In this document: positions 2 through 20,421 of the stretch, in pieces
Layout of the letters: every line of letters begins with the position of its first letter
How positions within the stretch are numbered: the first letter of the stretch is position 1
From: a virus
Length of the DNA stretch: 22,650 nucleotides
IMG/VR virus record: IMGVR_UViG_3300000115_005082
Coordinates: 1-22,650 of that record
Strand: one strand, 5' to 3'
Notes under the pieces: model-generated
What the model was told of the DNA's origin: nothing
Database searches by the model: none
What the model saw: only the letters and a program-made list of their open reading frames with translations
Position numbers and translations under genes: made by a program

Positions 2-511
2 TGTAGATATGAAGGAGCAGGTTTACAACCACAAAAACAACTTGTACCCACAGTCATATCAGGTTCTCCACTAGGAGCTATAGATAAAGAAGATAAACTG
101 TCTATTAGAATATTTGACTCTAGTGTGACTGAAAATGATAGGTTTAACTCGATGGTAGACAGAAAACCTGATAGAGGCATTGAATCAGAACGTAAGTTTG
201 ATGTAATTAAGTTTGAATCATCAGCCGGATACGAAAAAAGACGACTAAAATCTAGACGAGCTAAGCGAAATTACACATTGACATACACTAATGTTACAGG
301 TATCGAAAAAACAGCTATTGAGTCTTTTTACAATCAGAGAAGTGGTGAATTTGAATCTTTCATATTTGACTTGTCTCATATTAATGAAAGTGGTACAATT
401 ACAACAAGATTTGATGGTACTTTAAAAATAAATCAAATCTTATCTTCTGGTACAAGTCTAATAGATAACTATTATACTATTGATTTTAAACTTCAAGAGG
501 TGTACGATTAA
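2..511 (+). CDS. Lambda M-like minor tail protein, 5' end outside window
   Basis: This is the C-terminal part of a likely tail-tip protein resembling the phage minor tail protein M family, which sits at the tail tip below the tape measure protein. The reading frame is open from the left edge through position 511 with no stop. A GTG at 125 exists but has no Shine-Dalgarno sequence, so the true start is probably outside the window. The family-like part is the last ~110 residues: a GYE motif, a TLTYTNVTGIEK strand, then FYNQRSGEFESFIF, which fits the aromatic-Gly-aromatic pattern of M proteins, and a closing FKLQEVYD. The 40 codons before the GTG (for example GSPLGAIDKEDK, then RIFDSS) read as ordinary protein. 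Its stop overlaps the next start (TAATG), and an M-like gene directly before an L-like gene matches lambda order. The family call rests on motif and synteny. Confidence 0.7.
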   Translation, partial: CRYEGAGLQPQKQLVPTVISGSPLGAIDKEDKLSIRIFDSSVTENDRFNSMVDRKPDRGIESERKFDVIKFESSAGYEKRRLKSRRAKRNYTLTYTNVTGIEKTAIESFYNQRSGEFESFIFDLSHINESGTITTRFDGTLKINQILSSGTSLIDNYYTIDFKLQEVYD

Positions 512-2316
512 TGACTGCTCGCAATTATGATGTAATTTTAACTGTAAATGGTACAACAGGTTTTGTATCAGGTAATACAATTATCGGAGTGACATCAAAA
601 ACTCAAGGATTTATTGCTAATGTAGACTCTGCTACTAACAAAATAAAAGTTAAAATTAATAATGCAATGCAAGAATTTAGTAGTACTGAACAGGTATTTG
701 CTAATGCAATAGTTATTTCTGGTACAGCAAATGGTGCTCTATCAGGAGGCGATGACGGTACTAAAGTTCCTTTTCAATCTAATGTGCAGACAGGTTCTGA
801 ATCAACTCTTGGTACTGCTACAATTTCTGCTATTGCTCCTAGTCCTTTCAAAGCAGAAAAAAATGCATTCACACAAAATCCTATTGTAAGATTATACGAA
901 ATTTTCTATCCAGGTGAATGGTTCCCTTTTAATCGCTTTGGCAACCCCACAGGGGCTGGTGCTGGTAAGTCTTGGCCTTCTGTATTTCCACTTAGATTTG
1001 CTGATATAAGAGGTGATTTAATATCTGATCTACAATATAATGTAACTTACGACGGTACTTCTTATATACCTTTTCCTGTAAATCTTTCAAGTATTGATCA
1101 GGATGCTGATGGTAAAATTAATGAGTTATCATTAACTGTTTTTAATGTTGATAATATTATTTCGTCTTTAATAGAAGACCCTTTCTTACTCGGAGAAAAT
1201 GATAATGCAGATGCAAGTATGTCTGCTCATGTTAATGGAGAGTTAGTTTCTGGTATTGATAGAAGAACTGTACCTCAAGATACAGCAAACTATGATTTAG
1301 CAGTAGTAGGTCAATATGGTAAAACAAATGCTGCTTGGACTTACAGCACTACTCTAGCTAAGGAAGATCCATGGAAATCGGCTAAGAGTGATACAAGAGA
1401 CTTATTAGGAGGGGTGGTGAATATAAAAACCACTTTTGCAAACTTTTTAGATGTATGGCCAGAGTATAGTAGTGTACGATATATTAGTGGAAATGTAGTT
1501 GAGGTATTTAATGCCATGCCTTACAGAGTAGGAGATAATGTAAGATCTTCTACTGGTGATACAGAAGCTACAGTACAATTAATACAAGAAAATAAATTTT
1601 TATTTTTAAGTGGTGATTTGGATCAAAATTCTGCGGTGGGTGATAAGATATTTATTGTTAATCAGGACAAGGATACTGATTCATATATTGAAGACAGATT
1701 TAGAATAGATCAACTAGAGAAGATGGATGAAAGCACTGCTACCTTTGGTTTAGTTTCTTGGTTACAATATTTCAAACAACAGACTCCTAATAGAAAATAC
1801 TATAAAAATACATGTCAATGGGAATATAAAGGTGAAGAGTGTCAATATCCTGGCCCAGGAGAGAATAATACTGATACAATTACTGCAGCTACTAGGGCAA
1901 ATCCTGTTGTTTTAACACTTACTACCACTAATATGATAAATACTCAAAGAATTTTAATTGAGAATGTTAGCGGTATGACTCAGCTTAATACTAATAACTA
2001 TTTTGCTAATGTACTAAGTTCTACTACTGTAGCTTTATACTCTGATTCTGCTTTAACTACTACTATTAATGGTACAGGTTTTGGAACATATACTTCTGGA
2101 GGCACTGCTAAAAGTGGCGCTATAATACCTGGTAGTTTAAGAAATCAAGGAGTTGTTGCCTTTGCTAACACTTCTCCTATTACTGCTGCAAATGAAACAG
2201 CAGCTAGTTTAGATTTAGATGTTTGTGGCAAAAATATTCAAGCTTGCAGTATAAGAAATAATACTTTACATTTTGGAGGCTTCCCTGCTACAGGAAGAAC
2301 TGTACCTGTCAACTAA
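511..2316 (+). CDS. Lambda L-like tail-tip protein with four-Cys Fe-S site
   Basis: Lambda gpL is a tail-tip protein whose C-terminal domain binds a 4Fe-4S cluster through four cysteines. The same signature is visible: C435 and C444 in CQWEYKGEECQYPGPG, then C572 and C579 in CGKNIQACSIRNN, followed by LHFGGFPATGRT, close to the lambda C-terminus (RNNVGNFGGF). The protein has 601 residues against about 230 in lambda. The extra length is an N-terminal beta-rich module (about 1-105), an insert around 325-385 that looks OB/KOW-like, and a module at about 456-536 that splits the two cysteine pairs. Residues 110-320 and 390-435 would be the conserved core. The start is ATG 511 with GAGGTG upstream and a 1-base overlap with the M-like gene. 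The 3' end overlaps the radical SAM frame by up to 44 bases. Family assignment is strong from the Cys motif and synteny; insert names are tentative. Confidence 0.82.
   Translation: MTARNYDVILTVNGTTGFVSGNTIIGVTSKTQGFIANVDSATNKIKVKINNAMQEFSSTEQVFANAIVISGTANGALSGGDDGTKVPFQSNVQTGSESTLGTATISAIAPSPFKAEKNAFTQNPIVRLYEIFYPGEWFPFNRFGNPTGAGAGKSWPSVFPLRFADIRGDLISDLQYNVTYDGTSYIPFPVNLSSIDQDADGKINELSLTVFNVDNIISSLIEDPFLLGENDNADASMSAHVNGELVSGIDRRTVPQDTANYDLAVVGQYGKTNAAWTYSTTLAKEDPWKSAKSDTRDLLGGVVNIKTTFANFLDVWPEYSSVRYISGNVVEVFNAMPYRVGDNVRSSTGDTEATVQLIQENKFLFLSGDLDQNSAVGDKIFIVNQDKDTDSYIEDRFRIDQLEKMDESTATFGLVSWLQYFKQQTPNRKYYKNTCQWEYKGEECQYPGPGENNTDTITAATRANPVVLTLTTTNMINTQRILIENVSGMTQLNTNNYFANVLSSTTVALYSDSALTTTINGTGFGTYTSGGTAKSGAIIPGSLRNQGVVAFANTSPITAANETAASLDLDVCGKNIQACSIRNNTLHFGGFPATGRTVPVN
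1876..2118 (+). repeat. FCCH-like module, copy 1 (inside L-like protein)
   Basis: This is a protein-level repeat unit of about 80 residues. It starts with ITAATRANPVVLTLTTTN, continues with VSGMTQLNTNNYFANV and ends with NGTGFGTYTSGGT. The same pattern occurs in the J-like protein at 10329-10571: ITGITKANPAVVTT, then VNGMTQINNRELYVNRV, then NSSGFDTYST. Modules of this form in phage tail proteins are often matched to the FCCH domain of ubiquitin-activating enzymes; I apply that name from memory. In this protein the unit lies between the two cysteine pairs of the iron-sulfur site. Confidence 0.7.
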
Positions 2317-3475
2317 AATAAAAGGATGTATTCTTCCTTGGATGCATATATTTGGTGAGTTAAATGGTACATTTCATTTATGTTGTCATGCAGCATTTCA
2401 AGATAACCCTACTATTGTAGGTTCTCATGAAGAGTCACTAGTAGATATTTGGAATAGTGATATTTATAAAAAAACTCGTTTAAATTTTTTAAAAAATAAA
2501 ATACCTGCTGACTGTATAACTGCTTGTTATAATAAAGAAAAACAAGGAAGTGATAGCAACAGACTTCAAGTTAATAAAAGATTTTCAAAACATGCACATT
2601 TACAAGCTAAAACAAACTTAGATGGATCATTGAATAATAAGCCTACTTATCTAGACATAAGATTTGGTAATTTATGCAATTTTAAATGTCGTATGTGCTC
2701 TCCTCACTCATCTACTAGTTGGTATACTGATACTTTAGAGACTGGATTTTCTAAAGTAATTGATCATTTTACAAAAAATAAAGTTTTTTGGGAAGATGTA
2801 CCTGATTTTATTCCTCATTTAGAAGAAATATATTTTGCCGGTGGTGAGCCTTTTGTTCAGGACGGTCATTATAAATTACTTGAACTAATAATTGACTCTG
2901 GTCATGCAAAAAATATAAATTTAAGTTATAATACTAACTTAAGCTATTCAAAATATAAAAAACATAATATTCAAGAGTTGTGGGACAATTTTAAATCTAT
3001 ATCATTATGGCCGAGTATGGATGGCTTTGGAAAAAGAGCTGAATATTCTAGAAAAGGTTTATCATGGGAAAAGTTTCATACTAATGCCATGCTTTATAAA
3101 AAATATATTACTACTATTAGTTCAGTTATTAATATTTTTAGTATAACTTCTATGCCTGATCTTATACTTTGGTGTAAACATAATAATTTTGATTTTTATG
3201 GTACAACACTGATATATCCTCTTGAACAAAAAATTACTTGTTTGCCTAAATCTACAAAAAAAGAAATACTAGCTATGTATAAGTGTTTTCTTTATACTCA
3301 TAAAGATATTTTAAATACATATGATATTGAACAAATTAAAAATTGGCTAACCTTTATGATGAGTAGAGACGACTCTCATCTTTTACCAGCTTTTAAACTA
3401 GAACAGACACGTCTTGACAATTTAAGAAACGAATCATTCACAGAAATTTTTACGGAGTATTCTTCATGGTATTAA
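2273..3475 (+). CDS. Radical SAM enzyme with N-terminal twitch-like cysteine region
   Basis: Radical SAM enzymes use a 4Fe-4S cluster and S-adenosylmethionine to start radical chemistry. The cluster motif CNFKCRMC gives C135, C139 and C142 (numbered from TTG 2273), and FAGGEPF at 189-194 is the GGEP-type SAM-contacting motif. YNTNLSY, SMDGFGKRAEYSRKG and NIFSITSMPDLILW match later barrel strands of the twitch radical SAM proteins found in marine phages. An N-terminal CILPWMH..., CC pair and CITACY (C19, C37, C38, C81, C85) resemble an auxiliary Fe-S cluster domain. The substrate is unknown; such enzymes often act on peptides, some on sugars or small molecules. No ATG precedes the conserved CILPWM segment: TTG 2273 lacks a Shine-Dalgarno, while CTG 2306 has AGGAAG upstream, so the start is unsettled. 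The gene lies inside the tail operon between the L-like and K-like genes, overlapping both neighbours. Confidence 0.88.
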   Translation: MEASLLQEELYLSTKIKGCILPWMHIFGELNGTFHLCCHAAFQDNPTIVGSHEESLVDIWNSDIYKKTRLNFLKNKIPADCITACYNKEKQGSDSNRLQVNKRFSKHAHLQAKTNLDGSLNNKPTYLDIRFGNLCNFKCRMCSPHSSTSWYTDTLETGFSKVIDHFTKNKVFWEDVPDFIPHLEEIYFAGGEPFVQDGHYKLLELIIDSGHAKNINLSYNTNLSYSKYKKHNIQELWDNFKSISLWPSMDGFGKRAEYSRKGLSWEKFHTNAMLYKKYITTISSVINIFSITSMPDLILWCKHNNFDFYGTTLIYPLEQKITCLPKSTKKEILAMYKCFLYTHKDILNTYDIEQIKNWLTFMMSRDDSHLLPAFKLEQTRLDNLRNESFTEIFTEYSSWY

Positions 3476-3855
3476 ACTATTTAGGGCATAGACATGTGTA
3501 TGGTCAAATGGACTGTATTGAGCTTATACGTATTTTTTATAAACATGAATTAAAATTAGATTTCAATCTACCTGCTTACACAAAATCAAGACAGTGGATG
3601 AAGGATTTTAGCACTGAAGGTGTTGATAAATGGGCATCAACATATGCTACAAAAGTTAATTTGACAGATGCTAGAGATTATGATGTAATAGCTTACAAGT
3701 CAAATAAATCAAATTTAATAATTCATTTTGGAATATATTTGGCACCAGTAAGAATGTTACACATTGAAGAAGGGGGCATTTCGTGTGTTGAAACTTTATC
3801 TGACTATTGGGTAGAGAAGATTCATACATTGTATAGACATGGAAGTATGGTATAA
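3466..3855 (+). CDS. NlpC/P60-like tail peptidase, first copy
   Basis: This is a 129-residue protein resembling the C-terminal NlpC/P60 domain of lambda K, a cysteine peptidase fold associated with the tail tip and thought to process tail or cell-wall peptide bonds. Visible signs are YGQMDCIELIRIFYKHEL with the candidate nucleophile C17 at the start of a helix, followed by LDFNLP, and LIIHFGIYL with candidate catalytic H87 and then MLHIEEGG. The closing DYWVEKIHTLYRH also fits phage members. It starts at ATG 3466 with GGAG eight bases upstream, overlapping the radical SAM stop by 10 bases. The following gene is a second protein of the same general type. It could instead be an inactive structural relative, since I cannot test the third catalytic residue. 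Confidence 0.68.
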   Translation: MVLNYLGHRHVYGQMDCIELIRIFYKHELKLDFNLPAYTKSRQWMKDFSTEGVDKWASTYATKVNLTDARDYDVIAYKSNKSNLIIHFGIYLAPVRMLHIEEGGISCVETLSDYWVEKIHTLYRHGSMV

Positions 3856-4270
3856 AAAATATGTTGGATTACCTTTTAAACATTTAGGTAATGATCCTAA
3901 AACAGGTATAGACTGTTTTAACTTATGTAGGTATATTCTACAAAAAGAAACTGATTCAGCTCCTCCTAATACTACAGATCATTATTGCAAGATTGTTGAT
4001 GATGACTGGTATAATAAAACCAATGAAAGACTATTTTTAGATAATGCTACCAAAGAAAAGGGATGGCATAAAGTAAAACACCCCTCAGTATTTGATATTA
4101 TTGTAATGCGATTAGGTTCTACAAATACAGACAATCATTGCGCTATGTATATTGATAATAATAAAATACTACACACAATGGAAGGCTATTCAAGTTGGGT
4201 AGCTCCTTATGGAAGATACTATAAACAATATACAACAGGGATTTGGAAATGGAAGAATACAGACAATTAA
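3839..4270 (+). CDS. NlpC/P60-like tail peptidase, second copy
   Basis: This is a 143-residue NlpC/P60-like protein. GIDCFNLCRYIL carries candidate nucleophile C26 at a helix start. DNHCAMYIDNNKILHTMEG provides candidate H100 and the usual strand-turn-strand that follows, and VAPYGRYY resembles the end of the K-type domain. The N-terminal YVGLPFKHLGNDPKTGIDC fits the family pattern in which a Gly-rich loop and Asp precede the catalytic Cys, so it looks more canonical than the upstream copy. It overlaps that gene by 17 bases and the JAB gene by 22 bases, which points to coupled translation. The two copies differ strongly in sequence, so they are either an old duplication or separate acquisitions. 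The likely role is tail-tip maturation or peptidoglycan contact during entry, inferred from lambda K. Confidence 0.74.
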   Translation: MEVWYKKYVGLPFKHLGNDPKTGIDCFNLCRYILQKETDSAPPNTTDHYCKIVDDDWYNKTNERLFLDNATKEKGWHKVKHPSVFDIIVMRLGSTNTDNHCAMYIDNNKILHTMEGYSSWVAPYGRYYKQYTTGIWKWKNTDN

Positions 4271-4620
4271 AAGACGATATGGGATCTCATTCACAAACTG
4301 AGTATCCTAGAGAATGTGTAGGAATTATTACTAAGAATTTTAAGTATATTCCTTGTAAAAATATTTCTGATGAGCCTAAGTTAACTTTTATACTTGATCC
4401 TGCTGATTTAGTTCGTAATGATGGTAATATTTGGGGAATTTTTCATTCACATCCTGGAGATGAAAAACCTATTCCCAGTAAAGAAGATAAGGTAAGCGCA
4501 GCTTTTCAAGAATATAAATTTTTAGTAGGATTTGGTAATAATTTTAATATCTATTGGTTAGATAAAAGAGTAGACGCACTTATTTTTGATGAGTTTAAGG
4601 AAGAACATCTTGCAAATTAA
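4249..4620 (+). CDS. JAB/MPN metallopeptidase, lambda K N-terminal domain-like
   Basis: This 123-residue protein is built from one JAB/MPN (JAMM) domain, the zinc metallopeptidase fold forming the N-terminal half of lambda K. Metal-site residues are visible: E22 in YPRECVGII, H66 and H68 in FHSHPGDEKPIPSKED, S77 and D80. The spacing between the second His and the Asp is 11 residues, one more than I expect in classical JAMM motifs. I chose ATG 4249 (GGGA eight bases upstream) over the in-frame TTG at 4243. In lambda, JAB and NlpC/P60 lie in that order on one polypeptide. Here JAB is separate and comes after two NlpC/P60 genes. It likely acts in tail assembly or wall degradation at infection. 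Confidence 0.85.
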   Translation: MEEYRQLKDDMGSHSQTEYPRECVGIITKNFKYIPCKNISDEPKLTFILDPADLVRNDGNIWGIFHSHPGDEKPIPSKEDKVSAAFQEYKFLVGFGNNFNIYWLDKRVDALIFDEFKEEHLAN

Positions 4621-5338
4621 AGTAAAAGTACATTCAGCATTTCATAAATTTTTTGAGGATACAGAGTATACTATAGATGCTATTACAGCACTTGACGTAT
4701 TTCTGTATTTACGCTCTATGCATCCAAGATTTTCTTCTTACATGACTCAAACAGAGAGTAGGGCATCAGATGAAGATTTTGCTTTTTTAGATAAAGATTT
4801 AAAAATGATAGATGTACAAGCCATTGAATTTAAAAAGTTTAAAGAAGGTGATGTAGTACATTTAGTTCCTCTCATAGTTGGTGGAGGAGGTAAAAGAGGA
4901 TTATTAGCTTTCTTTGCTATAGCCGCTTTTATCGTATTTTTGCCTATGATAGCAGGTGCTTTAGCTCCTGCTGCAGGTGCAGGTGCAGGTGCTGCTGCAC
5001 CAGTTGCTACAATGTCAGCTACTGTAGCACCACAGGCTGCTCCGATGGTATCTAAAGGCTTTAGTATGAGTGGTTTTCTAAAAAAGATGGCGGGTAATTT
5101 ACTTATGAATATAGTTTCCAAAATCTTTACTAAAAGTGGTAAATCCAATAGTGATGAAAATGTTAGAGATAATAATATGTTTGGTAGTTTAAAAAATACT
5201 ACCTCAAGCGGTACCCCTATTCCTCTTCATTATGGATTAATGAGAGTTAGTGGGCAATTTCTTAGTGGATATATTCAAACTAATCGACATGGTAAGTCAG
5301 ATCAAGTAAATGTAGGAGCTGAGTTTGATGGTACATAG
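4610..5338 (+). CDS. Lambda I-like tail assembly protein
   Basis: This matches the lambda tail assembly protein I family, needed for tail-tip formation together with K and J. The N-terminus QIKVKVHSAFHKFFEDTEY and the ALDVFLYLRSMHPRF stretch fit the ubiquitin-like first domain. HLVPLIVGGGGKRGLLAF precedes a hydrophobic segment of about 20 residues and an Ala/Gly/Pro-rich linker. The C-terminal SGTPIPLHYGLMRVSG...SGYI is typical of the family. I chose TTG 4610 because AAGGAAG lies six bases upstream; ATG 4589 is in the same frame without a Shine-Dalgarno and would add seven residues. It overlaps the JAB gene by 11 bases and the J-like gene by 11 bases. It directly precedes the J-like gene, as in lambda. 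Confidence 0.78.
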   Translation: MQIKVKVHSAFHKFFEDTEYTIDAITALDVFLYLRSMHPRFSSYMTQTESRASDEDFAFLDKDLKMIDVQAIEFKKFKEGDVVHLVPLIVGGGGKRGLLAFFAIAAFIVFLPMIAGALAPAAGAGAGAAAPVATMSATVAPQAAPMVSKGFSMSGFLKKMAGNLLMNIVSKIFTKSGKSNSDENVRDNNMFGSLKNTTSSGTPIPLHYGLMRVSGQFLSGYIQTNRHGKSDQVNVGAEFDGT

Positions 5339-8300
5339 ACAATATACACAACACGCTAGTATAAGTGTTCCTATTATTCATGGATCAAAAGGTGGTAAAG
5401 GCTCTCCTAAAGAAGATCCTAACAATCTATTTTCTACTGATATCATGTTTGTAGTAGTAGGTCTTGGGGAAGGACCAATATACAGAATAAATCCTAATGG
5501 GCCCCAAGATATTAATATTAATGACGGAACTATTGATGACTTAGTTAATATTGACGGAGATGGTGAACAAAAATCGGAAGATTTTGTTACACTAGCTAAT
5601 ACCGGTACTATTAATCAGACTCGTTTAGATGTTTTTGGCGAAACCACAGTTACTCCTCAAAATTTTGCTTCTCCAGTTGGTCTTAGAAAAGGTGACGCAG
5701 AAGGAGTTCCTGCTAATGGTGTTGTTTTACAAGAAACATCTGCTTTTGCTTGGGACGCTTTACAATTTAATTTTCGTATTGGTGCTCTTCAAGAAGTAAC
5801 TGATAAGGGTGACGTACTTCAGCACAGTGTGGCTATACAAATAGTTGTTTTTGATCACACTGGAAGCACGCAGATTGCTACACTTTCAAGAACTATACAT
5901 GGTAAAACTACTGTGCCTTTTGGTTTTTCAGAAACTATAAATATCCCTGCTGCAAGTCAAAATGTTCTTGGTTATAGATTTAGTATTTCAAAAACTAGTA
6001 AAGATACTATTAATTCTAAAATTAGTGAAACTGTGAGTGCGGTAAGCTGGAATGAAATTGAAAATAAACCTCAAGCATATCCCAGAACTGCTCATATTGG
6101 TTACGCTTTAAAAGCTAAAAATGAGCATATTGGTGGGATTCCTACTTTTACCTCTATGATAAAAGGATTATTAGTTAAAGTTCCTAGTAACTATAATCAG
6201 CCTATACTTGAAAATGGTGAGATAGACTGGCGATATGTTGAAAGTGAAACTCCAGGTAGTCATCTACTTCAACAGACTGGTGGTAGTTCAGTACAAACTG
6301 GAGACCCTCAAATTTATAAAGGTGCTTGGGATGGTACTTTTGTATACTCATGGACTCAAAATCCTGCTTGGATAGTTTATGATATTTTAACAAATACAAC
6401 CTATGGTTTAAGTTTACCAGAAGAAAATATTGATAAATATAGATTTTACCAAATAGCTCAATACTGTGATGCTTGTGATTTTACCACTGGAAAATTTGTA
6501 GGAGTCGATGCTTTAGCTGATGGCACTTTTAGACATAGAAATAGGGGTTCATTCTTTTCAGTAAGAGAGAATCAACTTGGACTTAGTGATACCACTAAAA
6601 TAAAAGAACGTAGATTTACTCTGGATATTACTCTTGCTGATCAAAAACTAGCAATGGATCATATTAATGCTATATGTGCTTCTTTTAGGGCCGCACTAGT
6701 TTACTCAATAGGTAAACTTACTTTAGCTGTTGATATGCCTGACGAAGTTCCTGTAATGATATTTAATGAAACAAATATGAAAGCTGGGTCATTTGAGTTA
6801 CAAGGTAATAAACAGCAGGATATTTTATCAGGAGTAGATGTTAGTTACATTGATGTTAATAATCATTACAAAAGAGAAACAGTAAGAGTAGATCAAGAAG
6901 GATCAAATAGTGGTATAGATAAAAATATTATTCCTAATATCACTTCATTAGACTTAGCGGGCGTTACTAGAAGAAGTCAAGCTATTCGTTTTGCCCAATA
7001 CCAGATTGCAGCATCTAAATATATTAGAAGAAGTGTAACATTTACAACCAGTACTGATGCATTAAGCTTGGCTCCTGGAGATGTAATTGCTGTTAGCCAG
7101 CAACAAAATGGTATTGCCTATGGATTTGGAGGCAAAATATCTACTAATAGTGGTGTTGGTACAAATCACAATGTTTTTTTAGAGCATTTTACTGTACCTT
7201 CATTAGCCACGACTACTTTTACTGCTAATACAGGACCAATAGCTTTACGTATTATTGATCTAGAAGATGAAAGAATTGATCTGTATATAGTTTCTAATAC
7301 TATTTTTACGTTAACTCAGTCAGATTTTGTTGATACAGGTTTTGACGGGGCTATTGTAAATCCAATATTAAGATGGAATCCTATTAGAGGGGTGTATGAG
7401 TCTATATCAACTTTTACTGCAAATAATGCTCCTAAAAAAGGTAATCTTTGGACTCTAGGATATGTAAATAGCCTAGATAATTTTTACTCTGCTAAAGATA
7501 GTAAACTATTTAAAGTACTTGGTATAGGCAGAGATAACGAAAGTAATGAAATAGAACTAAATGCTACTGAGTATATTTCTAATATATATGTAGATTCTGA
7601 TACCTTTATTGACTACGTACCTACAGCTTATACTGATATACAATCAGCACTAAGCGTACCACCTCCTCCAAACTTTACTTTTACTCCTACACCTAGAAGA
7701 AGACTTGATGGCTCAGTTGTTGTAGATGGTGTAATAACTGAAGCTACAGATATAACTGATTTTGGCTTACAGATAGAAACAGAATATTTTATTTCAAAAC
7801 CGGCAATAGGAGCTACTTTACTTTCCAATGCACATATTAAACCTGACGGGGCATTCTCTGTAAAGTTAGAGCAATCTAATGTTATGGTTAACGATTCTAA
7901 TCCTACTGTTATAGTAGGTAAAAATGGTTTTTCAAGTTCTATTGGAGAAATAAAATTACTTTGTACAGAGGTATCAGTAGTCGATACTGAAGGAGGAACA
8001 AGTAGTGGTAAGATTCAGCTTACAATAGAAGGATTAGTACACGTTTTTGATGAAAATTTTCATAGACATGTTCTAGATACTAATGATTCGTTGGTATTTG
8101 GTAATTTAAAAGGTGCTGACTTTATTAGTATACCTGTTAAAGATAAAAATAATGATGGAAGTCAAAGAAACTTTGTTGGCTTTACAGGTATAGAAAGTGT
8201 TATTAGTAGACAAATTGAGTCTCATACTGTAGCTACTGATATAATTAAAATTGATAATCCTATTACTAACGGAACAGCTTTAAATACTGTACTACCTACT

Positions 8301-11300
8301 ACTCCTTTTTATGTTACTATTAATCAGCTTTTAGATTCTAGACATTATAATAATAACAGTTTTTATGTATCAGGTTCTGAATCAGTTTTTATAAAAAGTG
8401 GAGAAACTGAGGCCCCTACTACTACTGTAGACTTATCTGTTAGGCCCAGGCATGCAAATTTTGTTAGATTGTTTATAGATGGTACTGAAAAAAGTTCAGG
8501 TCAGTATACAGTTAATTTAAATATTGATGCTGCAGCGGGTATGAATGCAAACATTGAGTATACTACTCAATCTGGTGATACAGCCTTTAGAGCAGAAGTA
8601 GATTATTATACCGTTCCTGTTATAGAAGTTGGTGATAATGTTCAGACATCTGCGGGTAATACTTTTCCTGTTGTAAATACTAGTTTTGATGTCGCACATG
8701 CAACATATAATGCAGCTATTACAGCAAATTATATATATAGACTACAAACTGAGACTGCGCCTAGAGCAAATTTAGCAGGATTTACATTTATTAATGTATC
8801 TCCTGATCCTACAGGTACGCTAAATAATGTTTCTTCAGGATTAGGTACTTTAGACTATAATAAAGGAACTTTTCCAGGTAACTTTAGACTTGCTAATAAT
8901 AGAGTTTATAATGTACAAATAGGCTCTGAATTTGATAAACTTTTTGATATTAAAGATAAGACAATTAAAGATTTAGGCGAAGGAGTAACCACTCTTAAAG
9001 CAAGAAATAAAAGTCTTACTGGTAGATTTAGTCCTTTCGTAACTAAAACAATTACAGTACAAGATCTTCCTATCCAAAAAGTACGTGATTTATCTGTAAG
9101 CGAATCAATGTATAGAGAACAGACTGGTGGTGTATCTGTTAGAGCTACTGTTGAATTTACTCATATAATTGGGCAGGAAGTTACTGACTATGAAATATCT
9201 TATAAAATGGATAGCGTAGATGATGTAGGAAGTGATGATGGTGGACAAGATCTAACTTCATTTAATACAGTTAAAGTACCTGCAACTGGTGTAGAAGATG
9301 ATGGTAAAATTAGATTTACAGTTTCTAATATAAATAGAGGTATTACTAGTGATACAAAAAACATTATTTTTAAAATTGTACCCCTAAATAAGAGTGTTAG
9401 AGGTATTTCAGCTATTATTAGTAAATCAATTATAGGTAAAACTGCTAAACCAGCTAACATATTTAATTTTACCGGCGGCCAACAAACTGACCAACTTACT
9501 CTACTTTGGCAGTACGAAAGAACTACAGATGCAGAACTAGCTGATCTTGATTTAAAAGAGGTAGTTATACGACGTAGTGCAGGTGATGTTGCGGCAAACA
9601 TAGACACTTTTCTTAGTGCACAGCCTTTAGTTACTGTATCAGCAGGTACTGCTCGTAAATCAATTCCAATTGATATATTTGGGGAGTTTACTTATCTTGC
9701 TAGAACTCGTGATACTAGTGGTAATTTTAGTGAAAGTATTGTAGGAATTACTATTACTACCACAAGACCAGCTAGAAATACAGTTGTGGCAGCCTATAAT
9801 GAAGATGATCCTGCTACAGATTTTACTTTTATCCCAAATACTAATAAGGGTGAATCTAATTTTCCTTCATTTACTACTTCAGTAACAGGTGGTAGAGCTT
9901 TTAGCGATGTAGGCGGCCATACTCAGAGTAGTATTGTAGACAATGCTAATGGTACTGCTATAGGATTTTCAGCTTCTTCTTCAGTCTCTGATCTATTAGC
10001 TACAGCTAATGGAGAATATATTACACAAATTAGAGACTTTGGTGCAGTAGTTACTGGCTCTATTTTTGTTGATATCACTGCATCTCAAACTATACAAACA
10101 GGCTATAATGATACTAAATCTACTATTTTATCGGGAGTTACTGAAGTATCGGGAACAGCTGGTGTATTAAAAGAAACAGCTTTTGGTGGTATAGGACATA
10201 TATTAGGTTTTTCAAATACTGCTGTTCCAAATCCTAGATTTGATGCTAATAATAAAACAATAATGAGTGGCGGAGTTGATGGTACTGTATATGCTATTTG
10301 GAATGATGGACAGTATACTGGTAATGTTATAGCTATTACGGGGATTACGAAAGCTAATCCTGCAGTGGTAACTACTAGTGGTAGTGAACATGGGTTAGTA
10401 AATGGTGATAGAATTATTATTCATGGTGTAAACGGTATGACTCAAATAAACAATAGAGAACTATATGTTAATAGAGTAAACGGTACTAGTGTTCAACTAT
10501 ATACTAATGCTGACAGAACCTCTGCTCTTAATTCAAGTGGTTTTGATACGTATTCTACGCCATCTGGTGTTTTAGATCAAGGTGATTATGCAAATGCTAA
10601 CTCATACGCTCTTATAGCAGGTACTATTGATGCTGATGAAATACGTCTTGGCTCTACTTTCCATTCAAATGGTGAATCTACTGGGGGCAACGCTATTAGT
10701 AATATTACCGGAGTAGCATCCTCTTATAAATTAGTTAACTTAACTCAATATAATGATACTGGTTCTGGAGATACTTATGCAGGTAATCTTGGGTCAATTC
10801 AGTCACAAACATTAATTAGAACTTCAACTTCTGATAATGCCGCAATATATACTGCTAATGTGCTTCCGTCAACTTTAGCTTCTTGTGGTAATGTAGATGT
10901 ATCTAAATTTGTAAGTTCTTCAGTAGATAATGGTTTTCAATCTTACCAAGCTGGATCGAGAACATTTAGACAGTTCCAATTAAAATTTATTGTGAACAAT
11001 TTACAACCTGAACAATTTGACTTTACAATTGATAAATTTAGGTATACTATAGAAAAAGATACTGTAACATTTACAGACACAACTGCCTACGATGCTACTA
11101 CAAAAACTATTGATATTACTTCTGCAGGATTTTTAAATAGACCTGTTATTAACTATTCAATGATTGATGAAGATAGTGATAAACCTCATGTGGTAGTAAC
11201 TACTGCTGCTTCAAATCAAGCAATTAGCTACCAAGTATTTAGAAGTAGTACGGGAGCTGCTGCAAGCGTCACATCAGGCATGTCGGTAATGTTAACAGCA

Positions 11301-11312
11301 ACAGGAGTATAA
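5328..11312 (+). CDS. Lambda J-like central tail tip protein
   Basis: This 1994-residue protein matches the host-specificity protein J family, the trimeric tail-tip spike that binds the receptor. The N-terminal GSKGGKGSPKEDPNNLFS...VGLGEGPIYRI resembles J proteins, as do WIVYDILTNTTYGLSLPEEN (about residue 350) and RSQAIRFAQYQIAAS (about 555). A Pro-rich break PPPPNFTFTPTPRRR lies near residue 780, a beta-rich insert follows, and fibronectin-III-like modules begin near residue 1250 (PIQKVRDLSVSESMY). An FCCH-like module at about 1668-1748 is shared with the L-like protein. The last ~185 residues form a beta-rich domain that could bind carbohydrate. It is longer than lambda J (about 1130). I chose ATG 5328 (AGGAG nine bases upstream); TTG 5325 is also possible. 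The stop is followed at once by the fibre ATG. The central and C-terminal parts would carry receptor choice. Confidence 0.9.
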   Translation: MVHRQYTQHASISVPIIHGSKGGKGSPKEDPNNLFSTDIMFVVVGLGEGPIYRINPNGPQDININDGTIDDLVNIDGDGEQKSEDFVTLANTGTINQTRLDVFGETTVTPQNFASPVGLRKGDAEGVPANGVVLQETSAFAWDALQFNFRIGALQEVTDKGDVLQHSVAIQIVVFDHTGSTQIATLSRTIHGKTTVPFGFSETINIPAASQNVLGYRFSISKTSKDTINSKISETVSAVSWNEIENKPQAYPRTAHIGYALKAKNEHIGGIPTFTSMIKGLLVKVPSNYNQPILENGEIDWRYVESETPGSHLLQQTGGSSVQTGDPQIYKGAWDGTFVYSWTQNPAWIVYDILTNTTYGLSLPEENIDKYRFYQIAQYCDACDFTTGKFVGVDALADGTFRHRNRGSFFSVRENQLGLSDTTKIKERRFTLDITLADQKLAMDHINAICASFRAALVYSIGKLTLAVDMPDEVPVMIFNETNMKAGSFELQGNKQQDILSGVDVSYIDVNNHYKRETVRVDQEGSNSGIDKNIIPNITSLDLAGVTRRSQAIRFAQYQIAASKYIRRSVTFTTSTDALSLAPGDVIAVSQQQNGIAYGFGGKISTNSGVGTNHNVFLEHFTVPSLATTTFTANTGPIALRIIDLEDERIDLYIVSNTIFTLTQSDFVDTGFDGAIVNPILRWNPIRGVYESISTFTANNAPKKGNLWTLGYVNSLDNFYSAKDSKLFKVLGIGRDNESNEIELNATEYISNIYVDSDTFIDYVPTAYTDIQSALSVPPPPNFTFTPTPRRRLDGSVVVDGVITEATDITDFGLQIETEYFISKPAIGATLLSNAHIKPDGAFSVKLEQSNVMVNDSNPTVIVGKNGFSSSIGEIKLLCTEVSVVDTEGGTSSGKIQLTIEGLVHVFDENFHRHVLDTNDSLVFGNLKGADFISIPVKDKNNDGSQRNFVGFTGIESVISRQIESHTVATDIIKIDNPITNGTALNTVLPTTPFYVTINQLLDSRHYNNNSFYVSGSESVFIKSGETEAPTTTVDLSVRPRHANFVRLFIDGTEKSSGQYTVNLNIDAAAGMNANIEYTTQSGDTAFRAEVDYYTVPVIEVGDNVQTSAGNTFPVVNTSFDVAHATYNAAITANYIYRLQTETAPRANLAGFTFINVSPDPTGTLNNVSSGLGTLDYNKGTFPGNFRLANNRVYNVQIGSEFDKLFDIKDKTIKDLGEGVTTLKARNKSLTGRFSPFVTKTITVQDLPIQKVRDLSVSESMYREQTGGVSVRATVEFTHIIGQEVTDYEISYKMDSVDDVGSDDGGQDLTSFNTVKVPATGVEDDGKIRFTVSNINRGITSDTKNIIFKIVPLNKSVRGISAIISKSIIGKTAKPANIFNFTGGQQTDQLTLLWQYERTTDAELADLDLKEVVIRRSAGDVAANIDTFLSAQPLVTVSAGTARKSIPIDIFGEFTYLARTRDTSGNFSESIVGITITTTRPARNTVVAAYNEDDPATDFTFIPNTNKGESNFPSFTTSVTGGRAFSDVGGHTQSSIVDNANGTAIGFSASSSVSDLLATANGEYITQIRDFGAVVTGSIFVDITASQTIQTGYNDTKSTILSGVTEVSGTAGVLKETAFGGIGHILGFSNTAVPNPRFDANNKTIMSGGVDGTVYAIWNDGQYTGNVIAITGITKANPAVVTTSGSEHGLVNGDRIIIHGVNGMTQINNRELYVNRVNGTSVQLYTNADRTSALNSSGFDTYSTPSGVLDQGDYANANSYALIAGTIDADEIRLGSTFHSNGESTGGNAISNITGVASSYKLVNLTQYNDTGSGDTYAGNLGSIQSQTLIRTSTSDNAAIYTANVLPSTLASCGNVDVSKFVSSSVDNGFQSYQAGSRTFRQFQLKFIVNNLQPEQFDFTIDKFRYTIEKDTVTFTDTTAYDATTKTIDITSAGFLNRPVINYSMIDEDSDKPHVVVTTAASNQAISYQVFRSSTGAAASVTSGMSVMLTATGV
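10329..10571 (+). repeat. FCCH-like module, copy 2 (inside J-like protein)
   Basis: This is the second copy of the module described at 1876-2118. ITGITKANPAVVTT, VNGMTQINNRELYVNRV and NSSGFDTYST align without gaps in the key positions. At DNA level the short stretch GGTATGACTCA is identical in both copies, but the rest has diverged. A matching module in the L-like protein and in J suggests exchange or duplication between two proteins that meet at the tail tip. Confidence 0.7.
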
Positions 11313-12584
11313 ATGGCATTAACAGATTCAAATACCTATATTGAACCTACAGCAGGTACGTCACTTAATGGCGCAAGAACACAGTTTAATGCAACATTAC
11401 GCTCTATTCTAACTAATTTTAAAAGCGCTGCTACTCCCACTACTGTAAATTTAACGTCTGCTGGAGATGCAATAGGTGAACAAGACGGTATGTTATATTA
11501 CCGTACAGATACTAATATCAAAGCTTTATATATCTCAGATTTAGCAAACAAGAAGAGTTCATTAGTAGGTGGTAATTTTACAAGAGCGGGTATTGCACTT
11601 AGAACCGAAGATGGTTATACTGCAATGGCAAGTAAAGCTGCTACGTATGAGATTGGTGAGTTAGCTGCTACAGTAACAGCCACTGCTGGAGCAACTATGG
11701 CCAGTAATGCGCGACTTTATTTAAATGTAGCTAATGCTGGAAATGATACTGATTTTATAGATGTGGGTATACCTCCTACTAATGGCTCAGTTACAAACTT
11801 AATGGTGGCTGCTGGCGGTATAACCAGTGATAGAACAAATTTTAGCACTCAACCACTAAATACTAATTTTGTTAATATAATTCCTACTACCGAATATGGC
11901 CCTACTAGTGGGGCTAAATGGTTTCCTGAAACTACTGGTGTAAAAAATGCCCAGCTTAAGATTAGTGGATTAAATGCAGATGCTAACGCTGCTATAGTAT
12001 TTGCACATACTAATAATACTTTTAATGTGTCTGTGGCCCATACTCCCGGAAGAGAAGGAATAAGTTCAGGTATAACTGTGGTAGGATCAAATGGTACTTA
12101 TGTACCTGTAACTTCAAACCTAGCACTTCAATCGGCTATTATGGGTGATACTACTGCACCAGTTCCTGTAATGCCTGCGGGTACTATCATCATGTATGGT
12201 GCTGCAGCTGTTCCTGCAGGATATTTACACTGTAACGGTAGCACAGTTAGTAGAACTACTTATGCAGCTTTATTTGCGGTGCTAGGAACAGGATATGGTG
12301 CAGGAGATGGTTCTAGTACTTTTACTCTTCCAAACTTTACAGATAAAACCGTAATTGGTCAAAGTAGTACACATCCTATTAGTGCCGGAGCTGGTAGCTT
12401 TGCAGCAGGAGGCACTTTAACCACTGCTTCAGGCGGTTCAACACTATCAACTTCTACTGGATCTGCATCTTCTGGAGTTAAAGATGCTGGAGGTGTTTCC
12501 TTAATTTCTGCTGTGAGTATCGGTAATCATACACATACTGCTGTAGTTCCTCATGGCGTAGCCAGATTTATAATAAAAACCTAG
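11313..12584 (+). CDS. Tail fibre protein with phage collar domain
   Basis: This 423-residue structural protein likely forms a side or tip fibre. Residues about 287-350 are a phage tail collar domain: PAGTIIMYGAAAVPAGYLHC, then STVSRTTYAALFAVLGTGYG, then GDGSSTFTLPNFTDK. The C-terminal VPHGVARFIIKT is the usual end of collar-domain fibres. Between these lies a Gly/Ser/Thr-rich stretch with a final NHTHT, suggesting a metal-binding tip as in T4 short fibres; that role is inferred. The N-terminal ~100 residues (ALTDSNTYIEPTAGTSLNGA) probably attach to the tail. The ATG follows the J stop directly, with AGGAG five bases upstream. It ends 11 bases before the acidic protein gene. Confidence 0.85.
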   Translation: MALTDSNTYIEPTAGTSLNGARTQFNATLRSILTNFKSAATPTTVNLTSAGDAIGEQDGMLYYRTDTNIKALYISDLANKKSSLVGGNFTRAGIALRTEDGYTAMASKAATYEIGELAATVTATAGATMASNARLYLNVANAGNDTDFIDVGIPPTNGSVTNLMVAAGGITSDRTNFSTQPLNTNFVNIIPTTEYGPTSGAKWFPETTGVKNAQLKISGLNADANAAIVFAHTNNTFNVSVAHTPGREGISSGITVVGSNGTYVPVTSNLALQSAIMGDTTAPVPVMPAGTIIMYGAAAVPAGYLHCNGSTVSRTTYAALFAVLGTGYGAGDGSSTFTLPNFTDKTVIGQSSTHPISAGAGSFAAGGTLTTASGGSTLSTSTGSASSGVKDAGGVSLISAVSIGNHTHTAVVPHGVARFIIKT

Positions 12585-12595: not shown

Positions 12596-13195
12596 ATGGA
12601 ATATATTAAAGTAAATATAGATGAGATGAACCAAAAAATGGTTTTTTTTGATTATAGAGAGTACGAACCAGGAAATAAAGGTAAACTGGTATCTAGAGCT
12701 TTTCCTTTTGAAAAATTAGCAGAAAAAGTTCCAAGAGTAGAACAGGAAGTAGTAGGAGATATAATTGGTATATACTTTGAGCAAAGAGGTGATGAAACTA
12801 ATAGATATAGTGAACAACAGTTTAGTGATCACTGTGAACCTCTTGAAGAAGAAGTTATTGACTGGTGTATAGAATTATGTAAAAAAGCTTGTGTAGAATT
12901 AGCTTATGATGAAATTTTAAAACCTCCTTCAATTGATGAACAGGTAGAAGATTTTATTAAAGAATTTTTTGAAGAAGGAGAATCTGAACCTTTTGAAGAA
13001 AAAGATTTCTTATCTGATTTCTTTACCGAACTGGAAGATGATGAGATAAAAGAAGCTGGTAAAAGTAATTTAGAAGTTCCTGTTATAGAAACTTTAGAAG
13101 ATAAAATTGAAAATACCTTTAAAACAAAACAACTAGAATCAGTAGATTTTCTAGCAGAGTTTTTCTCTCAACTAGACGAGGAAAATAAGGAGTAA
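12596..13195 (+). CDS. Acidic protein with three DFxxxFF motifs, unknown function
   Basis: I do not recognise this 199-residue protein. It is strongly acidic. The N-terminal half (to about residue 110) looks folded, with EYIKVNIDEMNQKMVFFDYR and EEVIDWCIELCKKACVEL, which has three cysteines. The C-terminal half is Glu/Asp-rich and carries three spaced copies of one motif: DFIKEFFEEG (119-128), DFLSDFFTEL (137-146) and DFLAEFFSQL (184-193). A repeated short amphipathic motif in an acidic linker is typical of a multivalent partner-binding segment, so an adaptor or chaperone for the adjacent fibres is a reasonable guess, not shown. It has AAAGGTAATAG before ATG 12596 and lies between two fibre genes with tiny gaps on each side. 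Confidence 0.8.
   Translation: MEYIKVNIDEMNQKMVFFDYREYEPGNKGKLVSRAFPFEKLAEKVPRVEQEVVGDIIGIYFEQRGDETNRYSEQQFSDHCEPLEEEVIDWCIELCKKACVELAYDEILKPPSIDEQVEDFIKEFFEEGESEPFEEKDFLSDFFTELEDDEIKEAGKSNLEVPVIETLEDKIENTFKTKQLESVDFLAEFFSQLDEENKE
12950..13174 (+). repeat. Three DFxxxFF motif copies in acidic protein
   Basis: Three ten-residue units are encoded at 12950-12979, 13004-13033 and 13145-13174. All share Asp-Phe, an aliphatic residue, two variable residues and Phe-Phe, and acidic residues surround each. The spacing between copies is uneven (8 and 37 residues), which argues for linear motifs in a flexible tail rather than a tandem-repeat fold. Confidence 0.75.
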
Positions 13196-13197: not shown

Positions 13198-14904
13198 ATG
13201 GCTCTAACACGAGTTACATCATCAGTATTAGATTCAAATGCTGTTAGTGCAGAAAAAATTGCTAATTCTGCATTAACCAATAGAATGTATGGAGTTAAGT
13301 CTATTGGTCTTGAGCATTTAGCTAACGATGCTAATCTGCTTGTTTCAATCGGAAACTTTAATGCAAATACTAACTTAGTTGAGAATAATGTTAGACAAAC
13401 TTCAGCAAATGCTGCTGCTGAAAGGGCTAATGTTTTAACTATCACCTCTAATATTGTACAAACTGTAGCAAATATAAATCTTAATGCAGCTAATACTATA
13501 CAGTTACAACAGAATCTAGCTGCTAATGTAAATCAAACCACCGCTAATGTTACAGCTGTAGAGGCTAGAAGAGTAGCTAATATCGCTGGTGCTGTATCTA
13601 CTATTACTACTGGGAATCTTACTGCCTCAAGAGCTTTAGTATCTGATGGTAGTGGTAAGGTAGCCATATTAGCTTCTGTCACTTCTACAGAGTTAGGTTA
13701 TGTAGATGCTACTTCATCTATACAAACTCAGCTTAATGCAGGTGTTACAAAAATAAATCAAACTACAGATAATGTAAATCAAACTTCAACTAATGTAGCT
13801 GCTATACTTGCCGGAACTACAGGCTTTACTGGGCAAGTTACTATGGCAGATGATTTAGTCATTCAAGGTAATTTAACAGTACTTGGTGATAGTGTTACTG
13901 CTAATACTATTAATTCTGTTATACAAGATAGATTTCTTATGCTTGCTAACTCTGCAACAGGAGCCCCTTCTGCTGATGTAGGTATCTTTATGAATAGAGG
14001 TAATGAGGGTAATGCTGCTATTTTCTATGATGAATCTGCTAAGTCATTTACTATGGCAGAAACTAGAGATCCTGATGCTAATGTTGTTATTAGTCCTACA
14101 GGTTTAGCTAATTTAGTAGTAGGTACATTAAAATATAATGGAGCAGATTTAAATACTGCTATTACTGATAATAGATCTGGTGCTGTATCTACTGTTTATA
14201 AAGATAATCTTACAGCTTCCCGTGCTTTAGCTTCTGATGGTAGTGGTAAGATTGTTATTTCAGATGTTACTAGTACAGAACTTGGTTATCTAGATGGCGT
14301 TACTAGTGCAATACAAACTCAGTTAACTGCTGGAGTAAGTAATGCTGCCGCTGTTGTTGCTGAGGCCGTAGGTATAGAAGCTAGAAGAGCGGCAAATATA
14401 GCAGGTGCTGTATCTACTATTACTACTGCAGACCTTACAGCCTCTAGAGCTTTAGTATCCGACGGTAGCGGTAAAGTAGCTGCTTTAGCATCTGTTACCT
14501 CTACTGAATTAGCTTTTTTAGATGCTACCAGTTCTATTCAGACACAACTAGATAGTAAAGGTAGTACTGCGGATTTTGAAGCTAACGACTTTGTAACTTT
14601 TACTAGACTCAATGCAAATATTAATGTGGTGTCAGCTAATATCGCTGTTGGCCAGATTATGAAAGTTAATGTTATTGCTAGCACTGATGGTGAAGGAGCA
14701 GGTAATAATAATTTCTTTATAGCTACTCCTCCAGCAGGTAACCCTGCTGTAATTGACAATATAGCTGTTACTATAGATGGAGTTACACAAGCTAAAACAA
14801 CAGATTATTTATATACTGCAGGAACAGGTAAAATAACTTTTAAAGATGCTGCTATACCTACAGGATTAACTGTTACTATTACAAGTTTGAACCCTCCTAC
14901 ATAA
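13198..14904 (+). CDS. Tail fibre protein with three ~60-residue repeats
   Basis: This 568-residue protein looks like a trimeric tail fibre. The N-terminus ALTRVTSSVLDSNAVSAEKI is a common start of marine phage fibre proteins and probably the tail attachment part. An Asn/Ala/Thr-rich stretch to residue 120 with heptad-like spacing (NVRQTSANAAAERANV, NVNQTTANVTAVEAR) suggests a coiled coil. Repeats lie at residues 122-183, 326-380 and 394-455, each built around LTASRAL(V/A)SDGSGK, then VTSTEL, then IQTQL. Between copies 1 and 2 lies a domain that starts TGFTGQVTMADDLVIQGNLTV and is common in phage fibres. The C-terminus (IDGVTQAKTTDYLYTAGTGK) is a short beta domain. The ATG has AAGGAG upstream and lies two bases after the acidic gene. 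The stop overlaps the following radical SAM start (TAATG). Confidence 0.85.
   Translation: MALTRVTSSVLDSNAVSAEKIANSALTNRMYGVKSIGLEHLANDANLLVSIGNFNANTNLVENNVRQTSANAAAERANVLTITSNIVQTVANINLNAANTIQLQQNLAANVNQTTANVTAVEARRVANIAGAVSTITTGNLTASRALVSDGSGKVAILASVTSTELGYVDATSSIQTQLNAGVTKINQTTDNVNQTSTNVAAILAGTTGFTGQVTMADDLVIQGNLTVLGDSVTANTINSVIQDRFLMLANSATGAPSADVGIFMNRGNEGNAAIFYDESAKSFTMAETRDPDANVVISPTGLANLVVGTLKYNGADLNTAITDNRSGAVSTVYKDNLTASRALASDGSGKIVISDVTSTELGYLDGVTSAIQTQLTAGVSNAAAVVAEAVGIEARRAANIAGAVSTITTADLTASRALVSDGSGKVAALASVTSTELAFLDATSSIQTQLDSKGSTADFEANDFVTFTRLNANINVVSANIAVGQIMKVNVIASTDGEGAGNNNFFIATPPAGNPAVIDNIAVTIDGVTQAKTTDYLYTAGTGKITFKDAAIPTGLTVTITSLNPPT
13561..14562 (+). repeat. Three dispersed repeat units in fibre gene
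   Basis: Copies lie at 13561-13746, 14173-14337 and 14377-14562. Copies 1 and 3 share an identical 25-base segment at 13588-13612 and 14404-14428, and their proteins differ at few positions. Copy 2 lacks the EARR.ANIA lead-in and is more divergent. Near-identical DNA between copies 1 and 3 implies recent duplication or gene conversion and offers a site for homologous recombination that would change fibre length. Confidence 0.85.
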
Positions 14905-15896
14905 TGACACGTAAATATAGACAACTCACTACGGAACTAACCTTTAGATGTAATGCTAAATGTCCTGCATGTCACAGACAAAAACCTTTACGTATAAATT
15001 TAAATGATAAGCTATATACTTATACACTAAATAGTTTTAAGCAAGTATTTTATCCAGACTTATTACGTAATTTAGACTGGCTAGTATTAAATGGTAATTT
15101 TGGAGACTCTATAATGAACAAGCATTTTAGAGAAATTATTAGCTATGTTAAATCACATGGCACAAGATTATTAATACATACTAATGGTGGTATACATGGA
15201 CATGATTATTGGACAGATGTAGGTAATATTTTAACTAAACATGATATTATAAATTTTGATATGGACGGTTTAGAAGATACTCATTCTAAATATAGAATTA
15301 ATACAGAGTTTACAAATGTTTTTAATAATGCTTGTTCTGTAATTAATACGGGTAATACTCAAGTACACTGGAAGTATATTGTATTTGAGCATAATAAGCA
15401 CCAAGTAGAAGAAGCTAAAGAACGCGCAGTTAAATCTGGTTTTCATACTTTTTCTACTGTAAAAACTTCAAGAGATGTATTTGCACCAAAAACTGGACAG
15501 TTTGTTCACTCTAAAAAGAAAAAAGAAAATATGGATAAAGCTGAAAAGATAATTAAATGTGTATGGGATAACTGGGGTAAATGGTATATAGCTCCTGATG
15601 GTCTTGTTTTTAGATGTTGTTGGACAGGTGGTCACTATTATGATGAAAACAATTCTAGATTTTACTATCCTCCAAAATTTGAAAATCTCTTTAATGCTTT
15701 TCATGTACCACTTGATAAAATTTTAGAATACGGATATTGGAATAAGCTACAACAATATTTAAAAGGTTATGATAGATCTTTTGCTATATGTAAATCTCAG
15801 TGCGGTAAAATTGTTTCTTCAATCGAAAAAACAGAAGAAAATCTATTAACTGGTCAACGTACTTTTTTTGACTCAGATAATCAGATAGGAAATTAA
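14904..15896 (+). CDS. Radical SAM enzyme with SPASM-like C-terminal domain
   Basis: This is a 330-residue radical SAM protein unrelated in detail to the one at 2273. Its cluster motif is CNAKCPAC (C16, C20, C23), right at the N-terminus as in SPASM-type enzymes. LVLNGNFGDSIMNKHF (about 60-75) holds the glycine-rich strand that replaces GGEP in this branch, and LLIHTNGG and INFDMDGLEDTHSKYR are the next barrel strands. A second cysteine set, C219, C238, C239, C296 and C300, lies around WYIAPDGLVFRCCWTGG and CKSQCG and matches a SPASM or twitch auxiliary cluster. Enzymes of this architecture often install thioether or carbon-carbon links in peptides or oxidise Ser/Cys; the substrate here is unknown. 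ATG 14904 overlaps the fibre stop by one base, and the next gene starts immediately after its stop. Confidence 0.87.
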   Translation: MTRKYRQLTTELTFRCNAKCPACHRQKPLRINLNDKLYTYTLNSFKQVFYPDLLRNLDWLVLNGNFGDSIMNKHFREIISYVKSHGTRLLIHTNGGIHGHDYWTDVGNILTKHDIINFDMDGLEDTHSKYRINTEFTNVFNNACSVINTGNTQVHWKYIVFEHNKHQVEEAKERAVKSGFHTFSTVKTSRDVFAPKTGQFVHSKKKKENMDKAEKIIKCVWDNWGKWYIAPDGLVFRCCWTGGHYYDENNSRFYYPPKFENLFNAFHVPLDKILEYGYWNKLQQYLKGYDRSFAICKSQCGKIVSSIEKTEENLLTGQRTFFDSDNQIGN

Positions 15897-16979: not shown

Positions 16980-16989
16980 ATATAATTCT

Positions 16990-16996
16990 AAAGGAG
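16990..16996 (+). promoter_or_regulatory. Strong ribosome binding site (AAAGGAG)
   Basis: AAAGGAG lies seven bases before ATG 17004. It is one of the two best matches to anti-Shine-Dalgarno in the window and sits in a true intergenic gap, unlike the overlapping starts elsewhere. It suggests high expression of the gene that follows. Confidence 0.7.
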
Positions 16997-17003
16997 AATT
17001 AAC

Positions 17004-17669: not shown

Positions 17670-17677
17670 TAATATAT

Positions 17678-18186: not shown

Positions 18187-18320
18187 TGGGTATTGTACCT
18201 GAAGTTTTTCAAAGGACACCGAATAAATATCCTAAGAAAAAGATTAAACCAAAAGGTAAGAAAATATCTAATAAAACTATTTATGGCTCATTAAGAATTA
18301 AGTATCAGCAAAAGAAGTAA
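18186..18320 (+). CDS. 44-residue basic protein, overlaps convergent gene
   Basis: A short frame begins at ATG 18186, which overlaps the stop of the preceding gene (TGATG), and ends at TAA 18318-18320. The protein starts GIVPEVFQRTPNKYPKKKIK and is Lys-rich, like the small basic proteins upstream. It is too short for a standard length cut-off, but its one-base overlap with the gene before it matches the packing of the operon. Its last 23 bases run tail-to-tail into the minus-strand gene that ends at 18298. Confidence 0.5.
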   Translation: MGIVPEVFQRTPNKYPKKKIKPKGKKISNKTIYGSLRIKYQQKK

Positions 18321-20218: not shown

Positions 20219-20421
20219 TGTAGTTTTTTTATACCTATAGACCAATTCTCTGCGGCATCTTCTACATATCTAAGAGTCTTACCATGAAAACTTTCTTCAA
20301 AATATTTAACACCTTGTTCAGTAAAATATCTCAAATAAGCATACTCTTCTTTATAATCAAAATGCACTTCACAATAATCTCTGCTTGTGGTTGACATGAC
20401 CGTACTAAGTTTTCTTCCCAT
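20209..20421 (-). CDS. Small acidic-aromatic protein, unknown
   Basis: This is a 70-residue protein of unknown family. DYKEEYAYLRYFTEQGVKYF and RYVEDAAENWSIGIKKL suggest a small alpha/beta domain rich in Tyr and Phe. ATG 20421 gives residue 1; ATG 20397 (residue 9) is an alternative that yields the conserved-looking SRDYCEVHF start. It lies nine bases after the ThyX stop and overlaps the glycosyltransferase start by 10 bases, so it belongs to the minus operon. Confidence 0.65.
   Translation of the reverse strand: MGRKLSTVMSTTSRDYCEVHFDYKEEYAYLRYFTEQGVKYFEESFHGKTLRYVEDAAENWSIGIKKLQCQ

Follow-up and report, generated by a model that had tools for sequence, protein, structure and literature searches.

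The window, by which the whole 22,650-nucleotide stretch of viral DNA analyzed here is meant, contains a tail-tip operon like that of phage lambda, in which L, the K domains, I, and J follow in the same order downstream of a DUF2460-like protein (Table 1). It differs from lambda at two points. A gene for a twitch-type radical SAM enzyme, rSAM1, is inserted after L, and K (3466-4620) is split into three genes, NlpC, NlpC, and JAB, the reverse of the phrog_30 domain order. The interruption of the L, K order by a radical SAM gene had been predicted from an earlier inspection of the DNA and holds; the division and reordering of K went unmentioned there. The gene upstream of rSAM1 encodes, again as predicted, a four-cysteine L-like protein. 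It lies above the TIGR01600 equivalog cut-off (75.2 versus 70.75 bits), and its four cysteines are located in NTCQWEYKGEEC and DVCGKNIQAC. In lambda gpL, four cysteines hold a [4Fe-4S] cluster (PMC10721106).

Table 1. Genes of the tail-tip operon, the fibre side, and the minus-strand operon discussed in the text
Feature	Coordinates	Strand	Basis
Lambda L-like tail-tip protein, four C-terminal cysteines	511..2316	+	TIGR01600 75.2 bits, PF05100 86 bits
rSAM1, twitch-type radical SAM enzyme	2273..3475	+	NF033640, PF13186 SPASM, AF2, Foldseek
NlpC1, first NlpC/P60 part of split lambda K	3466..3855	+	PF00877 29.3 bits, phrog_30
NlpC2, second NlpC/P60 part	3839..4270	+	PF00877 40.7 bits
JAB part of split lambda K, after the NlpC parts	4243..4620	+	PF14464 39.5 bits, phrog_30
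Lambda I-like tail assembly protein	4586..5338	+	phrog_32 66.5 bits
Lambda J-like central tail fibre / host specificity protein	5325..11312	+	tblastn to lambda J and relatives, E about 1e-29 or better
Tail collar-domain protein, retained in relatives without rSAM1	11313..12584	+	PF07484 75.9 bits
p199, folded N-terminal domain and flexible acidic tail	12596..13195	+	alignment of 18, motif scan, AF2
fib568, fibre-like virion protein	13198..14904	+	phrog_16122 virion structural protein 1.6e-10
rSAM2, second radical SAM enzyme, right behind fib568	14904..15896	+	phrog_21308 95 bits
m268, CntL / nicotianamine-synthase-like SAM-using transferase	18298..19104	-	NF033601 CntL 7.3e-6, under its cut-off
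GT386, GT28-type glycosyltransferase	19085..20245	-	PF04101 24.5 bits, cut-off 22

In the L genes of relatives, one segment aligns with L residues 457-535 and also with J residues 1648-1737; this common domain lies at 1879-2115 and 10266-10535 of the window, with a weak Pfam E1_FCCH match in L. Because one segment matches both genes, the domain seems to move between tail genes. In addition, positions 14904-22592 (rSAM2 to the exonuclease) are 99%-100% identical at the protein level to one related contig, G001 (L260), and the tail-tip half is about 46%-77% identical to it, with a sharp mosaic boundary near the fibre gene.

Sequence and fold of rSAM1

The open frame of rSAM1 begins at 2255, just past a stop, and its first usable start is a TTG at 2273, which gives a protein of 400 residues. 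Most relatives share this TTG, but an ATG closer to 'IKGC' occurs in one clade, which leaves the start uncertain. The gene overlaps the 3' end of L by 44 nt (the L stop ends at 2316) and NlpC1 by 10 nt (start at 3466), in agreement with the overlaps noted originally. The frame is open in dozens of relatives at about 41%-72% identity and shows dN/dS values of 0.10-0.27 in close pairs, indicating purifying selection, so it is beyond chance.

With the NF033640 (N_Twi_rSAM) profile, whose cut-off is 170 bits, rSAM1 scores 351.7 over model positions 5-398 of 398, and a PF13186 SPASM match covers residues 19-81, ahead of the CxxxCxxC motif (CNFKCRMC). This motif, GGEP, and five N-terminal cysteines are invariant among 52 homologues; the invariant cysteines of the alignment are C4, C22, C23, C66, C70, C120, C124, and C127. 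The predicted combination of a CxxxCxxC with a twitch-like N-terminal cysteine set is thus present. A search for the twitch cysteines by regular expression missed 26 of 88 sequences; since several of these belong to an alignment (A4) in which the cysteines are invariant, the misses are taken as a spacing artefact of the expression.

The AF2 model of rSAM1 has a pLDDT of 92. Its best Foldseek matches are SkfB, CteB, BlsE, SuiB, and MoaA, with the similarity residing chiefly in the radical SAM core, and its top VIA match is BlsE (Z 11.4, rmsd 4.7, 218 residues aligned), with MoaA, SkfB, and others within 1 of it. By sequence, rSAM1 is an intact radical SAM gene of the N_Twi_rSAM family. We infer that the enzyme is catalytically active and carries an N-terminal auxiliary iron-sulphur (twitch) domain.

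Position of rSAM1 and relatives that lack it

The predicted link between rSAM1 and the tail is supported by its position. All IMG/VR loci found with rSAM1 and having enough room contain L upstream and NlpC1 downstream. When loci were instead found with L alone, which does not favor rSAM1, and clustered into lineages at 95% identity, with later scans added, rSAM1 lay directly after L in 63 of 71 lineages and was missing from 8. The first L-seeded tally stood at 212 loci with and 8 without the gene, a count in which some contigs appear more than once and rSAM1-seeded loci are included. Among N_Twi_rSAM proteins, the tail-operon copies form a single clade (SH-aLRT 100) that also encloses one copy from a bacterial chromosome. 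This copy, a 51% relative, lies between two lipoprotein-like genes (L258:7878-9062) on a contig that carries bacterial genes and comes from a Candidatus Neomarinimicrobiota MAG.

More distant N_Twi_rSAM proteins are found away from tail genes, within rSAM arrays, where their neighbors are other rSAMs together with a few hydroxylases and a few sugar epimerase or glycosyltransferase genes. The tail linkage that the original prediction proposed to look for among homologues is therefore conserved in the tail clade and not in the wider family; scattering away from tail genes occurs only outside the clade. Two loci encode proteins of 864 and 1416 residues in which two N_Twi_rSAM units are fused in tandem (L168:3961-6552 and L186:10332-14579, both on the minus strand). 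In the collections of cultured phages searched, rSAM1 gave only 21% matches in two Vibrio phages and L gave none.

The lineages without rSAM1 are informative. In seven cases NlpC1 follows L directly (L304, L354, L355, L359, L373, L380, and L388), and one group lacks both rSAM1 and NlpC1 (L284/L286/L289). All eight lineages retain L, NlpC2, JAB, I, and J, and the four cysteines are kept in all eight distinct L sequences. The L cluster and the L-K-I-J set are thus independent of rSAM1 and, as judged from these genomes, the L-K-I-J tip can be built without the enzyme. On the L tree the presence of rSAM1 changes state twice, with seven of the rows without it together and L284 apart; as a quick tree without an outgroup, it does not separate loss from gain.

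Alleles of rSAM1 are also exchanged under an unchanged L. In the pair L031/L097 identity over L is 100% and then drops to 54%-73% in DNA windows across rSAM1, whose protein identity is 57%. In a second pair, L047/L056, L (94%), JAB (96%), and the start of J (92%) are similar, but rSAM1 is only 52% identical. Past J, p199 of this pair is 86% and fib568 55% identical; this is the one swapped pair with such data and fib568 is variable in general, so that its divergence here is at most suggestive of a connection with rSAM1.

Genes inherited together with rSAM1

Downstream of J and the collar gene lie p199, fib568, and rSAM2, partners that had not been connected with rSAM1 in the original prediction. 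rSAM2 contains FRCNAKCPAC and a cysteine-rich C-terminal part and, with a median identity of 73%, is better conserved than rSAM1. Further along, GT386 and m268 lie on the minus strand, in a different operon that also holds Thy1, a dUTPase-like gene, and an exonuclease. CntL, which m268 resembles, is an aminobutanoyl transferase. Counting the window, every rSAM1-positive contig that reaches the respective gene has it: 19 for p199, 18 for fib568, 18 for rSAM2, and 13 of 13 for both GT386 and m268. Four contigs without rSAM1 run well past J (G016, G018, G028, and G029). All of them have the collar gene, and p199, fib568, rSAM2, GT386, and m268 are absent from all four. Two more contigs, G024 and G031, are uninformative on these later genes because the former ends inside p199 and the latter starts within J. 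Contigs of the L284 and L304 lineages, likewise without rSAM1, stop too soon to show this region. The association is equally strict when approached from p199: fib568 lies downstream in 75 of 75 p199-seeded loci, rSAM2 in all 20 with more than 5 kb of room, and rSAM1 upstream in 30 of 31, the contig of the exception ending inside NlpC2, short of the site. Since the four informative contigs without rSAM1 belong to one clade, the co-loss amounts to about one event.

Pairwise identities did not single out a partner. When rSAM1 was set against each tail gene in a mirror-tree analysis, all of them correlated by shared descent and none stood out. Among pairs with similar backgrounds, which are not independent of one another, rSAM1 tracks p199 and the collar slightly better than J; the measure for fib568 in this comparison is spoiled by internal repeats (one contig scores 0.35 against itself).

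The product of p199 has a confidently modeled N-terminal domain followed by a flexible tail of short helices (AF2). The tail bears three F[LI]x[ED]FF (DFLAEFF-like) motifs in the window and two to three copies in 80 related loci; among the loci then scanned, the motif is confined to p199. No relatives of p199 were found in the 50,697 phage records searched. The N-terminal domain has no clear structure match, and hence p199 shows no sign of a RiPP recognition fold and could not be assigned to a solved structure. A 2OG-Fe oxygenase assignment was likewise set aside, the match being weak (E 0.005) and lying over the acidic tail. Set against an adjacent RiPP precursor with an RRE, p199 has repeats and is co-inherited with rSAM1 but lies 9 kb from it. 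A 74-residue ORF after rSAM2 was considered as a precursor peptide and rejected, as G007 has no space for it.

Possible roles and comparison with known systems

Taken together, these patterns suggest that phages carrying the rSAM1 set may chemically modify part of their own tail. The reading we favor, tentatively, is that rSAM1 and rSAM2 modify a virion protein on the fibre side, fib568 or the repeat tail of p199, as a co-inherited module of rSAM1, p199, fib568, and rSAM2, with GT386 and m268 as possible helpers. Both enzymes would act by radical chemistry like that of peptide maturases, and the location of rSAM1 between L and K would have it made together with the tail proteins. That the substrate is a protein, and which one, we infer. 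This reading is favored because p199, fib568, and rSAM2 come and go with rSAM1, and the best fold matches lend it support since they include the peptide maturases SkfB, CteB, and SuiB. It is weakened by the co-loss being about one event and by identity comparisons that single out no partner, by a p199 that has not shifted along with rSAM1 (86%) in the swapped pair L047/L056 and whose fold has no clear structure match, and by the wider family, whose neighbors are other rSAMs, hydroxylases, and sugar enzymes rather than tail genes. A more specific version, in which p199 is a multi-core substrate, borne on the virion with the fibre, and rSAM1 and rSAM2 cross-link its DFLAEFF repeats or modify them in some other way, seems unlikely; should it hold, these phages would encode a radical-SAM system for virion modification that has no described counterpart.

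The main rival places the chemistry on a small molecule: rSAM1 and rSAM2 would tailor a nucleotide sugar or similar donor, and GT386 would attach the product to the virion fibre or the host surface, with m268 perhaps adding an aminocarboxypropyl-type group. The strict presence of GT386 and m268 with rSAM1 (13/13 against 0/4), the sugar-nucleotide rSAM BlsE as top VIA match, tied within 1 with others, and the few sugar epimerase and glycosyltransferase neighbors in wider-family arrays all agree with this. The core fold match is, however, generic to radical SAM enzymes, the co-loss is again about one event, and the two pairs of genes are in different operons, rSAM1 and rSAM2 in that of the tail, GT386 and m268 in one on the minus strand; on balance we regard this route as somewhat doubtful. 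The same two genes adjoin Thy1 and the dUTPase-like gene (18298-21790, minus strand), which could point to enzymes that make a modified base. This is very improbable, given that both radical SAM genes have their fixed place in the tail operon, with likely late expression, and that G018 has Thy1 but none of rSAM1, rSAM2, GT386, and m268.

A direct action of rSAM1 on the tip proteins L, the split K, I, or J, as originally proposed for L or J, for example in maturing the L iron-sulphur protein during assembly, draws on the overlap with L and NlpC1, on the fixed position, and on the four cysteines of L, whose lambda homologue binds a [4Fe-4S] cluster (PMC10721106). It fares poorly against the eight lineages in which the enzyme is missing but NlpC2, JAB, I, J, and an L with all its cysteines persist. 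Nor is L expected to be the substrate when rSAM1 changes under a constant L, as where it was replaced by a 57% allele, and it is the p199, fib568, and rSAM2 set that leaves together with rSAM1; we consider it quite unlikely that the tip proteins are the target. The exchange of rSAM1 alleles resembles that of a host-interaction gene, and the bacterial relative between lipoprotein-like genes on a Neomarinimicrobiota chromosome contig is also consistent with an enzyme that alters a host envelope molecule, for example to prevent superinfection, and is simply carried along in the late operon. Such a host-directed role would leave unexplained why rSAM1 and the p199, fib568, and rSAM2 set always occur together, and it is very unlikely.

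Marine phage genomes commonly carry radical SAM genes, which are as a rule catalogued as auxiliary metabolic genes without a known use. The tie of rSAM1 to defined tail genes, together with natural relatives that lack it, makes the role of a phage radical SAM enzyme a bounded question, and the search for a modified residue narrows to four or five named proteins. If the favored modification of a fibre-side protein is correct, it would give phages a novel means of diversifying the chemistry of the structures that contact the host.

Analogous to the RiPP maturases SkfB, CteB, and SuiB, which are among its best structure matches, rSAM1 combines a radical SAM core with an auxiliary iron-sulphur domain. 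In those enzymes the auxiliary domain is C-terminal, whereas in rSAM1 it is N-terminal (residues 19-81); rSAM1 has no proven precursor peptide, and the Foldseek TM of about 0.33-0.38 refers to the core only. With the N_Twi_rSAM family (NF033640) it shares a full-length match over the cut-off, the N-terminal auxiliary cysteines, CxxxCxxC, and GGEP, but the other viral members found mostly belong to arrays containing at least two radical SAM genes, not beside lambda tail genes, and the tail copies form one separate clade. In pelagimyophages, radical SAM cassettes occur in the host recognition cluster (PMC7029224); there too the genes vary among near relatives and lie near tail-fibre genes. Those phages are myophages with cassettes in that cluster, in contrast to the single gene fixed here inside a siphophage-type tip operon. 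The open-access literature searched yielded no description of phage tails being modified by a radical SAM enzyme. The enzyme family itself is known; what is new, to our knowledge and within that literature, is a single enzyme of this kind, rSAM1, that holds a constant place in a siphophage-type tip operon and is inherited together with rSAM2, a fibre, and a repeat protein.
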